The translations under genes and the position numbers were made by a program. From Verrucomicrobiota bacterium (GTDB lineage: Bacteria > Verrucomicrobiota > Verrucomicrobiia > Limisphaerales > JACQFS01), in assembly GCA_016199935.1 (NCBI GenBank), contig JACQFS010000170.1:1-64000 (forward strand): 64,000 nt of DNA, given 5' to 3'. The notes beneath the pieces are model-generated. The model made no database searches. It had not been told where the DNA came from and saw only the letters and a list, made by a program, of their open reading frames with translations. Shown one piece after another: positions 8,084 to 52,930 of this stretch. Position 1 is the stretch's first letter. Each line of letters begins with the position of its first letter.

Positions 8084-8377
8084 GATCTGAACTCAAATCG
8101 TGGCTGGTCAGACTCAAGCGACGGTGATCTGAACCCAACCTGCCGCGGTCTGAACTCAAACTGCCGCGTTTCGAACTCAAACCGCGGCAAGTTGGATTCA
8201 AACTGTGACGATCTGAACTCAACCAGCCGCAAGTTGGATTCAAACTGCCGGAATCTGAACTCAAACTGCGGCGATTTGGACTCAGATCGCGGTGATTTGG
8301 ACCCAGATCGTGACGATTGGGACCCAGATTGCGACGATTTGGACCCAGATTGCGACGATTTGGACTCAGATCGCGAC
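8084..8377. repeat. 21-bp degenerate tandem repeat array A (14 units)
   Basis: 14 consecutive 21-mers without indels, e.g. gatctgaactcaaatcgtggc, ggtctgaactcaaactgccgc, gatttggactcagatcgcggt, gatttggacccagattgcgac; approximate consensus GATYTGRACYCARAYTGCGRC. Confidence 0.95.
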
Positions 8378-8507
8378 GATCAAAGTCTGAATTCCACGCA
8401 CTTTAGACCAGTTATCCACTTCCAAACACGATATTTACGTCGCTTTACGTCAGCTTCAGCCTGCCGCCCCACGTCCGGTGTCCAGCCAGAACCGGCGTTT
8501 CCCCGGG

Positions 8508-8538
8508 CTTTGAACCGTGCTTATCCGGTTTGTTGGCA
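8508..8538 (+). repeat. dispersed ~35-bp repeat (CTTTGAACCGTGCTTATCCGGTTTGTTGGCA), copy 1
   Basis: similar to copies at 10275 (-), 52756 (+) and 52899 (-). Confidence 0.75.
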
Positions 8539-8720
8539 TTGAAGGAATTTAGCTCCTAAAGCGCATCGCGAGACCGCGCGATCCCTCCGTCTTGCCGCCA
8601 CGGGGCGCGCTGCCGAACGGCGGGGAGGTTGTTCATTGTATTATGGAAACGCGCCCCCCCCCACTCGATCAAAGCGAACCGCGGAGCAAGCACGAGTTGG
8701 GCTACCAATTCGATGTCTGC

Positions 8721-8747
8721 AAAAAAAACCCCCGCCGAAGCGGGGGG
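8721..8747 (-). terminator. intrinsic terminator for the 8767-10192 operon
   Basis: minus strand CCCCCCGCTTCGGCGGGGGTTTTTTTT. Confidence 0.85.
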
Positions 8748-8766
8748 TGAATTTCAATCGAGAAGT

Positions 8767-8976
8767 TCAGGCGGGAATTGCCTTCTTGTCTGGTTCGGAC
8801 GCTCGAACTTCCGCCTCAGCATTGGAGCCAAATCCGATGCCTTGTTGTTCCTGACCAAGCCTTACCAAGTTCTCAAGGAACTCGATGTCAATGGACCCAT
8901 TCACCCGCGTCACTCGGACAGTCGAGTGATCATTACCAGGGTCGGCGTTCTCGCCACTTGTTTTGTTATCACTCAT
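8767..8976 (-). CDS. small hypothetical protein (69 aa)
   Basis: ATGA overlap with upstream stop; terminator follows immediately. Confidence 0.55.
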   Translation of the reverse strand: MSDNKTSGENADPGNDHSTVRVTRVNGSIDIEFLENLVRLGQEQQGIGFGSNAEAEVRASEPDKKAIPA

Positions 8977-9914
8977 TTGTTTGTTACGCCCTCTGTTGCC
9001 TTGGGTTTAACTTTGCGCGACTCACCACCTATGTAGCAAGCCACACTCACAACATCGGTGAAACAGGCAAGGATTTCACCAAAATTCTTGTCATACATGT
9101 TTGGCTCTTTCCAATCAAAACACAGGACTCCCACTACGGTTTTGTTGGTGATCACGGGGCAGGTTACGACTGTCCGGTAACGAGCGCCATAACTTTGTTT
9201 CTGCTCCTGTGGCCAGAACCGTGAATCTGTCAGGATGTCGTTCGTCCATGCAATTTTCTTCGTGATTAACGCCTCCTGCGCGATCCCTTGGTTGGTTGGA
9301 AGAGTAGTCGAGTTCTTCCTTCGTTCCAGTGGAGTTGATGGGCTGTATGCGCAAGTGACCAAACCGGGTTCGCCAGTGTTCGGGTCTGGCTTCAGCACTT
9401 TGAAGACGATTTGGCAGTCCGCTCCGGAAATTGCGCGCATCGCTCTCTCCAGCATTCCGAGTTGCGCGCTGATTGTGTCGAAAACATGTTTGGTCGCGGT
9501 GGCTACGTCGCTTTGGTCAGCAAGCCGAAGAAAAGCGCCGTCCGAAAGCAAGGAATCACGGGTTTGGTGAATGACACAATGGAGGCTGGCATAAACATCG
9601 TAGTGTGACGTTACGACCTGCTCCAGATGTTGAACCTTCTCCGCCTGTGCCCCAGCGTTCTCACCGATAATAAAAAACGCCCGCACCGCAAAAGCCCCTA
9701 CGATCACGTAAGCCAATTGCAACGCGGTCACCACTCCTTCGGAAATGAGCTTCAGATCGAGCGCCTGCTTGTGCAGCTTCATCACAAAGTCTGCCAAGGC
9801 GATTACGGAAACCCAACTGAATATCTTGATCGTCAAACTCCCCTGGATACCGCTCCAAAAATGTCCGAGGCGGCGCAGCCACTGGGGCTGGGTGTTTTTT
9901 CGTGGTGCAGACAT
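8973..9914 (-). CDS. 2TM-GAF domain protein
   Basis: two hydrophobic segments near N-terminus, then GAF-like region (GIAQEALITKKIAWTNDIL...VVTCPVITNKTVVGVLCFDW). Confidence 0.75.
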   Translation of the reverse strand: MSAPRKNTQPQWLRRLGHFWSGIQGSLTIKIFSWVSVIALADFVMKLHKQALDLKLISEGVVTALQLAYVIVGAFAVRAFFIIGENAGAQAEKVQHLEQVVTSHYDVYASLHCVIHQTRDSLLSDGAFLRLADQSDVATATKHVFDTISAQLGMLERAMRAISGADCQIVFKVLKPDPNTGEPGLVTCAYSPSTPLERRKNSTTLPTNQGIAQEALITKKIAWTNDILTDSRFWPQEQKQSYGARYRTVVTCPVITNKTVVGVLCFDWKEPNMYDKNFGEILACFTDVVSVACYIGGESRKVKPKATEGVTNK

Positions 9915-9919
9915 GATGC

Positions 9920-10192
9920 CTACCGAATATTGCGTTTCATCCAATCCACCACTTCCTTCACAACATTAAGGGAGTTCCATCCGCCCGTAAGTTCGACAAC
10001 CAAAATCTTGTCGTTTTCATCCACGAGCGCCATCAGGGAATCCCGCACCTGAGTTGTGTTCTGCGACGTCACTAACAACCAGGTGGATTCCAACGGCCTT
10101 GCCCATAACTCGAAAGTTTTGAGTGCGGTGATCAGCTTGGAATAGTCCCGATGTGGTGCCTTTAAATCATAGCTGACGAGGATTTTGTTCAT
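9920..10192 (-). CDS. SinR-family / Cas2-fold-like small protein
   Basis: MNKILVSYDLKAPHRDYSKLITALKTFELWARPLESTWLLVTSQ...VRDSLMALVDENDKILVVELTGGW resembles SinR-family proteins (YDL...STW...D.LLV pattern). Confidence 0.7.
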   Translation of the reverse strand: MNKILVSYDLKAPHRDYSKLITALKTFELWARPLESTWLLVTSQNTTQVRDSLMALVDENDKILVVELTGGWNSLNVVKEVVDWMKRNIR

Positions 10193-10274
10193 GGCGACGC
10201 TCAGATTTGTTTAAGCATCTGCGGCAGCAGTGATAAGAGAGGAATGGTTTGCATGAAGCAAAAGGAAAATTTCA

Positions 10275-10313
10275 CTTTGTCAGCGAACCGGATAAGCGTG
10301 CTTTGAACTTTGA
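10275..10313 (-). repeat. dispersed ~35-bp repeat, copy 2 (inverted relative to 8508)
   Basis: ctttgtcagcgaaccggataagcgtgctttgaactttgag. Confidence 0.75.
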
Positions 10314-10365
10314 GCTTTGAACTTTCCCCCGGCGTCTCTAGCGTCCGCCCGCAAAACCACGCGCC

Positions 10366-12504
10366 ATGCCTGCATTCGCCCTCGCCATCTTTACCGGCGC
10401 CTTTCTCATCTTCCTCGTCCAGCCGCTCATCGCGAAGTTCATCCTGCCGTGGTTCGGCGGGACGCCGGCGGTGTGGAGCACGTGCGTCCTTTTTTTCCAA
10501 CTGCTCCTGCTCGGCGGCTACGCTTACGCGCACCTGAGCATCAGCAAGCTGACGCCGCGCCGGCAGGTCATCCTGCATCTCGCGCTGCTCGCGGTCGCGC
10601 TGCTCTGGCTGCCCATCGTGCCGGGCGAGCAGTGGAAGCCGGCGGACGGGACGAATCCCTCCGGGCGCATCCTGCTGCTGCTGCTCGCCACGCTCGGCCT
10701 GCCGTATCTCGTGCTCTCGGCCACCGGGCCGTTGATGCAGGCGTGGTTCGCGGAGGCGCGGCCGGGTGTATCGCCGTATCGGCTGTATGCGCTTTCAAAT
10801 GTGGGCTCGCTGCTCGCGCTCGTGGCGTATCCGTTCATCGTGGAACCCAACCTCTCGCGGCGCGCGCAGGCGTGGGCGTGGTCCGGCGGGCTGCTGTTGT
10901 TCATCGGCTTCGCGGTGTGGTGCGGCGTGCTCGTGTGGAAGGCGGCGGGGCAGACGAAACCGGCCAGCACACCGGAGATGGCGGCCGCGGATTCTGCCGC
11001 CGAAGACAAGGGTGGTCCCAAATGGCTGTGGTTCATGCTCCCCGCGTGCGCCTCGGTGCTGCTGCTCGCGGTGACGAACAAGATTTGCCAGGACATCGCG
11101 GTCATCCCGTTTTTGTGGGTCGTGCCGCTGAGCCTTTACCTCGTCACGTTCATCGTGAGCTTCGACGGCCCGCGGTGGTATTGGCGGCCGTTCTGGATTC
11201 CGCTGTTCGTGATCTCCATTGGTGCGCTGCTCTGGATGCTCGCGGGGCCGGACCTCACCGAGCCGACTTCCAAAACTCTCAAGCCGCTCGCCTGGCTCAT
11301 TGAAAAATCCAACGGCCTGTCCATCCTCACGATCATCGGCATCTACGTCGGCACGATGTTCGTGTGCTGCATGGTCTGCCACGGCGAGCTCTACCGGCTC
11401 CGGCCCGGCGCGAAAAAACTCACGGGCTACTTCCTCACCATCTCCGCCGGCGGCGCGGCGGGCGGTCTGTTCGTCGCGCTCGTCGCGCCGTTCATCTTCC
11501 GCCATTTCCTGGAAATGCAGGTTGGTTTCTTCGCCGTGTGCGTGCTCGTGGTGACCGTGCTCTGGGTGGACAAGAATGGCTGGCTGCGTCATCCGCGCCA
11601 CGCGTGGTCGTGGTTCGTCGTGCTGCCGGCGCTCGGCGGAGTGGGCGGGCTGTTTTACTTCGACGCGCGCGAGGACATGCGCGGTGCCTCCGAGCTGGCG
11701 CGGAACTTCTACGGTGTGCTCAAGGTTTACGAGTCCTGGCCCGACAATCCGGATCTGCACAAATTCATGTTCCAGCACGGCGGCACCACGCACGGGTTGC
11801 AGTTTGTGGATGACGCCAAGCGCCGCCTGCCGACGACGTATTACACGAGCAGCAGCGGCGTGGGGTTGGCGATGAAAAATTTCCCGCGCAAGGAGAACCG
11901 CCGCATCGGCCTCGTGGGCCTCGGCGCGGGCAGCCTCGCGGTATATGGCAAAGCGGGCGACACCATGCGCATCTACGAGATCAACCCCGAGGTGCCGCGC
12001 ATCGCAAACAAATGGTTCACCTACCTCAAGGACTCCGCCGCGAAGATTGAGCTCTCGATGGGCGACGCGCGCCTCTCGCTGGAACGCGAGCCGTCGCAGC
12101 AGTTCGACATCCTCGTGCTCGACGCCTTCAGCAGCGACGCGATCCCGGTGCACCTGCTCACGCGCGAGGCCATCGAGATTTACCGGCGGCACCTGAAGCC
12201 GGACGGCGTGATCTGCGTGCACATCTCCAATCGCCACCTGAATCTCCAACCCGTCGTGTTCGACCTCGCCAGGCATTTCAACTACAAGGCCATCCTCTTT
12301 CGCGACGACGACGTGGACGAACGGCAGGAGGACGAGGAAACCGGCGGCGCCTACACGACCGACTGGGTGCTGCTGACGAACAACGAGGAGTTCGCGAACC
12401 TCCCCGCCATCCACGGCGGCAAGGGCGAGCGGGACGAGTTCAAAAAGAAAATGCCGATGTGGACCGACGAGCGCAGCAGCCTCTCGGAGATTTTCATTTT
12501 CTGA
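10366..12504 (+). CDS. fused MFS-like transporter / spermidine synthase-like protein
   Basis: multiple TM helices then IGLVGLGAGSLAVYGKAGDTMRIYEINPEVPRIA and ILVLDAFSSDAIPVHLLTREA. Confidence 0.85.
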   Translation: MPAFALAIFTGAFLIFLVQPLIAKFILPWFGGTPAVWSTCVLFFQLLLLGGYAYAHLSISKLTPRRQVILHLALLAVALLWLPIVPGEQWKPADGTNPSGRILLLLLATLGLPYLVLSATGPLMQAWFAEARPGVSPYRLYALSNVGSLLALVAYPFIVEPNLSRRAQAWAWSGGLLLFIGFAVWCGVLVWKAAGQTKPASTPEMAAADSAAEDKGGPKWLWFMLPACASVLLLAVTNKICQDIAVIPFLWVVPLSLYLVTFIVSFDGPRWYWRPFWIPLFVISIGALLWMLAGPDLTEPTSKTLKPLAWLIEKSNGLSILTIIGIYVGTMFVCCMVCHGELYRLRPGAKKLTGYFLTISAGGAAGGLFVALVAPFIFRHFLEMQVGFFAVCVLVVTVLWVDKNGWLRHPRHAWSWFVVLPALGGVGGLFYFDAREDMRGASELARNFYGVLKVYESWPDNPDLHKFMFQHGGTTHGLQFVDDAKRRLPTTYYTSSSGVGLAMKNFPRKENRRIGLVGLGAGSLAVYGKAGDTMRIYEINPEVPRIANKWFTYLKDSAAKIELSMGDARLSLEREPSQQFDILVLDAFSSDAIPVHLLTREAIEIYRRHLKPDGVICVHISNRHLNLQPVVFDLARHFNYKAILFRDDDVDERQEDEETGGAYTTDWVLLTNNEEFANLPAIHGGKGERDEFKKKMPMWTDERSSLSEIFIF

Positions 12505-52755: not shown

Positions 52756-52930
52756 CAAAGTTCAAAGCGTGCTTGTCCGGTTGGTTGACAAAGTATGACG
52801 CGAATTGCGCGAATTGGCACGAATTGGAGAATCTGTTTTTGAATTCGCGCCAATTCGCGCAATTCGCGTCACCGGTCTTTTTTGGTTTCTTCGTTTTTGT
52901 CAGCAAACCGGATAGGCATGATTCAAAGTT
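52756..52930. repeat. MITE-like double inverted-repeat element
   Basis: outer arms 52756-52793 / 52899-52930 (copies of dispersed 35-bp repeat); perfect 22-bp inner arms tgacgcgaattgcgcgaattgg (52796-52817) / ccaattcgcgcaattcgcgtca (52850-52871). Confidence 0.9.

Follow-up and report, generated by a model that had tools for sequence, protein, structure and literature searches.

IS1595 insertion sequences are known to carry passenger genes (PMC3129680). Among small nucleases, BPSL1038 is an active dsDNA endonuclease in which a catalytic aspartate pairs with serine/threonine of the turn between strands beta2 and beta3, Asp11 acting with Ser33/Thr34 (PMC10491678). VapD toxins, in turn, are reported to trigger the SOS response (PMC11980593). 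Proteins of the phage and plasmid family phrog_1090 are often annotated "SinR"; the family is uncharacterised, and our search of the literature on SinR-like proteins in connection with Cas2, HEPN, VapD or CBASS returned nothing relevant.

Our present results concern a three-gene operon in a 64,000-nucleotide stretch of Verrucomicrobiota DNA (the window). The operon begins with a SinR-like gene and is carried by a discrete mobile element of about 1.8 kb, located at 8516-10300. We lean, by a modest degree, towards reading this element as an IS1595-type cassette that carries a three-gene conflict operon, in which the gene 1 product acts as a nuclease alongside a membrane GAF protein.

Boundaries and relatives of the element

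The features of the element and of its two short relatives in the same genome are as follows.

8508..8515, no strand: target-site duplication, left copy CTTTGAAC, identical to 10301-10308 and placed exactly outside the inverted ends
8516..8538, plus strand: left terminal inverted repeat CGTGCTTATCCGGTTTGTTGGCA, an end motif found also on MITE-like and IS1595 elements
8729..8746, minus strand: operon terminator of intrinsic type, CCCCCGCTTCGGCGGGGG, with a run of 8 T after it (8721-8728)
8767..8976, minus strand: gene 3, 69 aa, with its start inside the ATGA overlap, without family and with no homolog found
8973..9914, minus strand: gene 2, 313 aa counted from ATG, N-terminal pair of TM helices followed by a GAF domain
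9920..10192, minus strand: gene 1, 90 aa, SinR-like (phrog_1090), predicted Cas2/VapD fold, conserved D9 and S36
10193..10277, minus strand: leader from gene 1 to the right end; the promoter lies here or acts from outside the element
10278..10300, minus strand: right terminal inverted repeat, CACGCTTATCCGGTTCGCTGACA when read inward
10301..10308, no strand: target-site duplication, right copy CTTTGAAC, matching 8508-8515
52768..52920, no strand: MITE-like hairpin element of 153 bp, same inverted ends, 7/8 duplication (GTTCAAAG/ATTCAAAG)
C39:8042-8190 (L203), strand not given: MITE-like hairpin element of 149 bp, same ends, duplication GGTTGGAT

An earlier note on this DNA had described a compact minus-strand operon closed by an intrinsic terminator and poorer in GC than its flanks. 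ORF coordinates confirm the layout: genes 1 and 2 are separated by 5 bp (9915-9919), genes 2 and 3 share the ATGA at 8973-8976, and all three frames are intact. The terminator, a hairpin read from 8746 to 8729 on the minus strand ahead of its T-run, is equally real and is graded strong. The GC content of the operon is 0.50-0.54 vs 0.62-0.70 in the surroundings, and that of the bounded element 0.52 vs 0.64 in the 2 kb on either side. GC3 is 0.54-0.64 for the three genes vs 0.85-0.88 for neighbouring ones. A promoter search found no sigma-70-like site and nothing above chance.

While the note was right about the operon and its terminator, it missed the insertion-sequence ends and the target duplication, and the actual unit is larger (8508-10308 with the duplications). 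When 8380-10380 was searched for repeats, a single inverted pair emerged (8519-8538 with 10278-10297), and a direct repeat lay immediately outside it. The left end agrees with the reverse complement of 10278-10297 in 17 of 20 core positions, the terminal inverted ends are about 23 bp each, and over 30 bp they are identical in 19/30. With the ends set at 8516 and 10300, a perfect 8/8 direct repeat is present on both sides, suggesting a fairly recent insertion. No transposase gene was found among the ORFs of 8516-10300. It is because of these ends and this duplication, the marks of a mobile element, that the operon appears as a compact unit of low GC; a prophage or plasmid remnant had also been considered as the source of the low GC, and this candidate was dropped once they were found. 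Just left of the element, at 8126-8380 of the window, lies a degenerate tandem array of 21-bp units (consensus GCGACGATTTGGACCCAGATC and relatives) with up to about 10 copies matching at 73-88%.

Across the whole genome, the end motif occurs as an inverted pair in three places, namely the cassette itself, 52768-52920 and the copy on contig C39. The hairpin of 52768-52920 folds far better than shuffled sequences (z -9.65). The motif was also present in 16 of 146 related genomes, often as inverted pairs and in four genomes with 12-26 copies, while the reversed pattern, used as a control in the same 146 genomes, was almost absent. Eleven paired elements were inspected for duplications, which were 8/8 in six, 7/8 in two and 6/8 in one; the remaining two, both in one genome, have flanks agreeing in 2/8. 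One related genome (L256) holds an element with the same ends and an 8/8 duplication that encodes an IS1595-family transposase (PF12762, E 5e-29, with zinc ribbon PF12760) together with a 179-aa passenger. Another (L257, 539-1493) has the same ends and an 8/8 duplication, GAATGACC, without a transposase; its sole passenger is a 266-aa membrane protein with a hydrophobic segment. In two further genomes (L267, L270) transposase fragments are adjoined by the same end.

Since the same ends occur on small hairpin elements, here and in related genomes, and on an element with an IS1595 transposase, the stretch 8516-10300 is identified, at the level of sequence, as a non-autonomous mobile insertion cassette of IS1595 type, with the operon inside; the term agrees with annotation of the ISfinder kind. 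The draft host genome, 98% complete, yielded no transposase bearing ends of the cassette type: its one IS1595 relative (C122) is 34% identical and lacks these ends in its locus, so that the cassette would have to rely on a transposase other than those detected in the draft. For transposition, an IS1595 transposase would have to be supplied in trans.

The three proteins of the operon

Gene 1 matches the PHROGs profile phrog_1090 over residues 1-89 of 90 (E 3.1e-25). Its match to the Cas2 profile is weak (E 0.002), the Pfam score for PF09827 being 18.7 bits, below the cut-off of 23.8, and its PADLOC matches are confined to weak Cas2 models. The Cas2/VapD-like fold that the earlier note had suggested is supported by a confident AlphaFold model (pLDDT 93.3). 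The closest fold in the PDB is BPSL1038 (7VXR; Z 11.8 over 85 residues, rmsd 2.1), whose type of fold the model reproduces including the C-terminal helix, and it is followed by a long series of Cas2 proteins at Z 8-10, well above the rest. Foldseek alone gave a best E of 1.6e-3. In the model, the ferredoxin-like fold places an aspartate in catalytic position at the end of beta1. All 30 family sequences share residues Y8, D9 and S36, T37 and W38 are common, and by secondary structure S36 falls in the beta2-beta3 turn, as in BPSL1038. Gene 1 lacks D(X20)SST in its literal form, for it reads D9-X26-S36-T37 and thus differs in spacing and in the first Ser; we therefore call it a relative within the Cas2/VapD superfamily and not a BPSL1038 ortholog. 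On model and alignment, the assignment of gene 1 as a putative superfamily member that has both the acidic and the serine position of a nuclease site is well supported, and from this we infer nuclease activity.

Gene 2 carries a GAF domain above the Pfam cut-off (GAF_2, E 4e-7), preceded by hydrophobic helices at about residues 23-47 and 54-86, in agreement with the two helices and sensor domain named in the earlier note. Its homologs were sought in plasmids, phages, viral contigs and 84,980 species genomes, and none was found; 97 genomes of the same order gave generic GAF similarity and no other match, and no solved structure matched its sequence. Single-sequence structure prediction of gene 2 was unusable (pLDDT 37). 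For gene 3, plasmids and viral contigs yielded no homolog, and none of Pfam, NCBIfam, PADLOC and PHROGs assigns it to a family. NCBIfam matched none of the three genes, and PADLOC models of known anti-phage systems matched neither gene 2 nor gene 3. As genes 2 and 3 have no detectable relatives, the set of genes 1-2-3 was seen once.

Neighbours of the gene 1 family and the proposed function

Homologs of gene 1 are rare and scattered, present in 1-4% of genomes: 10/387 in the host phylum, 15/349, 5/239, 3/249 and 5/246 in four other genome samples, and 0/14 in control genomes, counts that include a few weak or merely partial matches. On small plasmids, and likewise in immunity regions of temperate phages, such homologs are common. 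The host genome itself has a second SinR-like gene, 35% identical to gene 1 (C227:1079-2110, L066).

The neighbours of these homologs were all identified in the DNA sequence itself, and a profile match confirmed most of them. An HEPN_RiboL-PSP gene directly precedes the second SinR-like gene of the host, and in one relative, too, a homolog follows such a gene. Abi_2/PD-T4-5-like and PIN_8 genes adjoin other homologs, and in two loci, one of them viral, a homolog is followed by a metallo-beta-lactamase, PDC-M48B, and a TM protein (L021, L128). CBASS-type neighbours include SAVED with SMODS (CD-NTase) and a LexA-like protein with SMODS. Short HsdS and HsdM stand beside homologs in at least nine gammaproteobacterial loci, and opposite-strand genes in the vicinity of homologs encode a TIR protein and an ABC-3C CTD7 protein. 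HTH/ImmA-IrrE pairs, in some cases PADLOC's capH/capP, and LexA-type regulators are further neighbours. A small 2TM protein is conserved with the homolog in three genomes of two phyla, at 33-39% identity.

Several details of these loci deserve record. In the gammaproteobacterial loci L032, L034, L036, L037, L038, L040 and L042-L046, a type I RM operon starts with the SinR-like gene and contains an unusually short HsdS (about 204 aa) accompanied by HsdM. The modules of SinR-like gene and 2TM protein (L072 4918-5600, L073 4589-5249, L110 4012-4781; Verrucomicrobiota and Pseudomonadota) encode a 2TM protein that begins with an RRGRV(D/E)S motif and has no Pfam family. Neighbours in L104, L106 and L111 were judged HEPN-like by eye (RN-x-x-x-H) and have no Pfam match. 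Small proteins of YegP/DUF2188 appearance, again by eye, adjoin SinR-like genes at L030 3747-3992 and in the upstream ORF of L128.

Counted as PADLOC families and not as proteins, with a few neighbours picked by hand (for example the metallo-beta-lactamase of L128), 179 families were matched for 107 neighbours, a number dominated by nine HsdS; 94 families for 61 neighbours are left when the HsdS set is removed. The control gave 14 families for 119 genes at randomly chosen positions of 15 of these genomes, a subset unmatched for mobile islands. Recurrence of the gene 1 family beside defence systems is well supported, and the conserved feature is gene 1 with swappable partners.

Because relatives of gene 1 stand beside so many anti-phage systems, the cassette is probably an undescribed mobile defence or addiction unit, and a role in defence appears rather probable. 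The interpretation offered by the earlier note, a defence, toxin-antitoxin or signalling cassette, is hence partly supported: the neighbours of homologs speak for the conflict setting, and the expected co-occurrence of all three genes was not found, genes 2 and 3 having no homologs. In the mechanism we propose, gene 1 would be the part acting on nucleic acid, perhaps as an mRNA interferase or a DNase. The membrane GAF protein would sense a trigger, either a ligand or the membrane state, and free the activity of gene 1; alternatively, gene 2 itself may be the membrane effector, restrained by gene 1. The product of gene 3 may be a subunit with an accessory or antitoxin-like function. As a result, the operon would either defend against phage by arresting growth upon infection or make the host addicted to the element.

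The partners also bear on what gene 1 does by itself. Homolog genes without an operon partner exist in L123, on plasmids L008 and L010 and in phages L014-L017, and some partnerless ones lie beside HTH/ImmA-IrrE or LexA-type regulators (L123, L124, L039; phages L015, L017). That homologs can stand alone next to damage-type regulators speaks for gene 1 being itself an effector. Carried further, and in line with the SOS induction by VapD toxins, gene 1 might be a stand-alone, damage-inducible VapD-like nuclease toxin transported as cargo, with gene 2 coding for a membrane sensor that is unrelated to it and only by chance part of the same operon. We hold this to be not very likely, for the cassette has no HTH/ImmA-IrrE or LexA-type regulator and the tight coupling of the genes, with its 5-bp gap and ATGA overlap, argues for a joint function.

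Membrane partners raise a second alternative, a type V toxin-antitoxin pair like GhoS/GhoT, which has its attraction as an analogy. Gene 1 would then be a Cas2-fold endoribonuclease and the 2TM part of gene 2 a membrane toxin, kept low through cleavage of its mRNA by gene 1, and removal of gene 1 by stress or phage would let the membrane protein arrest the cell. GhoS is indeed among the fold matches of gene 1, and two-TM or other membrane proteins recur beside homologs (L068, L071, L072, L073, L110, L078). The GhoS match, at Z 6.6, nevertheless stays below the level that separates true relatives, most partners of homologs are not membrane proteins, and GhoT is a very small two-TM toxin whereas gene 2 has 313 aa and a GAF sensor domain, so that this reading is unlikely.

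Given such extremely varied partners, the role of gene 1 could be regulatory. A purely regulatory, non-catalytic Cas2-fold binder that tunes adjacent defence or sensory genes would also fit the frequent position of the homolog as first gene of its operon, before HsdS/HsdM, SMODS or PIN genes, but the Asp and Ser at the nuclease-site positions are invariant, which makes this quite unlikely. Equally improbable is that ordinary signalling genes without a defence role are decaying as selfish cargo on a dead element, since the intact frames and terminator and the perfect target duplication speak against what the lack of homologs for genes 2 and 3 and the 19/30 identity of the ends might suggest.

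Returning to the conflict operon as the preferred reading, a wider proposal can be put forward tentatively, as a possibility rather less likely than not: phrog_1090 may serve prokaryotic immunity as a general module, nuclease or regulator, that is swapped among HEPN, PIN, MBL, CBASS, type I RM and 2TM partners, and the present locus a new system of that class, composed of a Cas2-fold nuclease and a 2TM-GAF sensor between IS1595 ends. If this is true, a widespread family annotated as "SinR" or "hypothetical" is a shared component of many immune operons. The family would also be a living relative of the Cas2 ancestor, making the origin of Cas2 from a toxin or regulator testable. Finally, defence operons would be able to move as transposase-less IS cassettes, which searches for transposases or integrases miss.

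Comparison with known systems

Gene 1 shares with BPSL1038 the fold of the whole protein and two conserved positions, an Asp that follows beta1 and a Ser/Thr in the turn from beta2 to beta3. It differs in sequence, with 8% identity and D-X26-S in place of D-X20-SST, and in setting, as BPSL1038 was described outside any defence or mobile context (PMC10491678). With Cas2 of CRISPR-Cas systems it has in common the ferredoxin-like fold, a conserved acidic residue and a weak profile match, yet it scores below the Pfam cut-off and has partners other than Cas1. VapD toxins likewise form a family of small Cas2-like nucleases, some of them stand-alone (PMC11980593); their antitoxins are VapX, VapY and VapW, whereas no matching antitoxin was recognised in the family searches made here with gene 3 and the partners of the gene 1 family are membrane, HEPN, RM or CBASS proteins. 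Loci of the PADLOC candidate PDC-M48 resemble ours in having a gene 1 homolog ahead, and differ in that the present operon contains no MBL.

As a mobile unit, the cassette resembles mobile insertion cassettes, and likewise IS1595 elements with passengers (PMC3129680 and references 5 and 6 therein), in its IS ends, its passenger genes and the 8-bp duplication; with the mobile insertion cassettes it also has the absence of a transposase in common. The difference lies in the cargo, which in the known cassettes consists of resistance or other known genes and here of a three-gene Cas2-fold/GAF operon, a new type of cargo on an IS1595-ended cassette.
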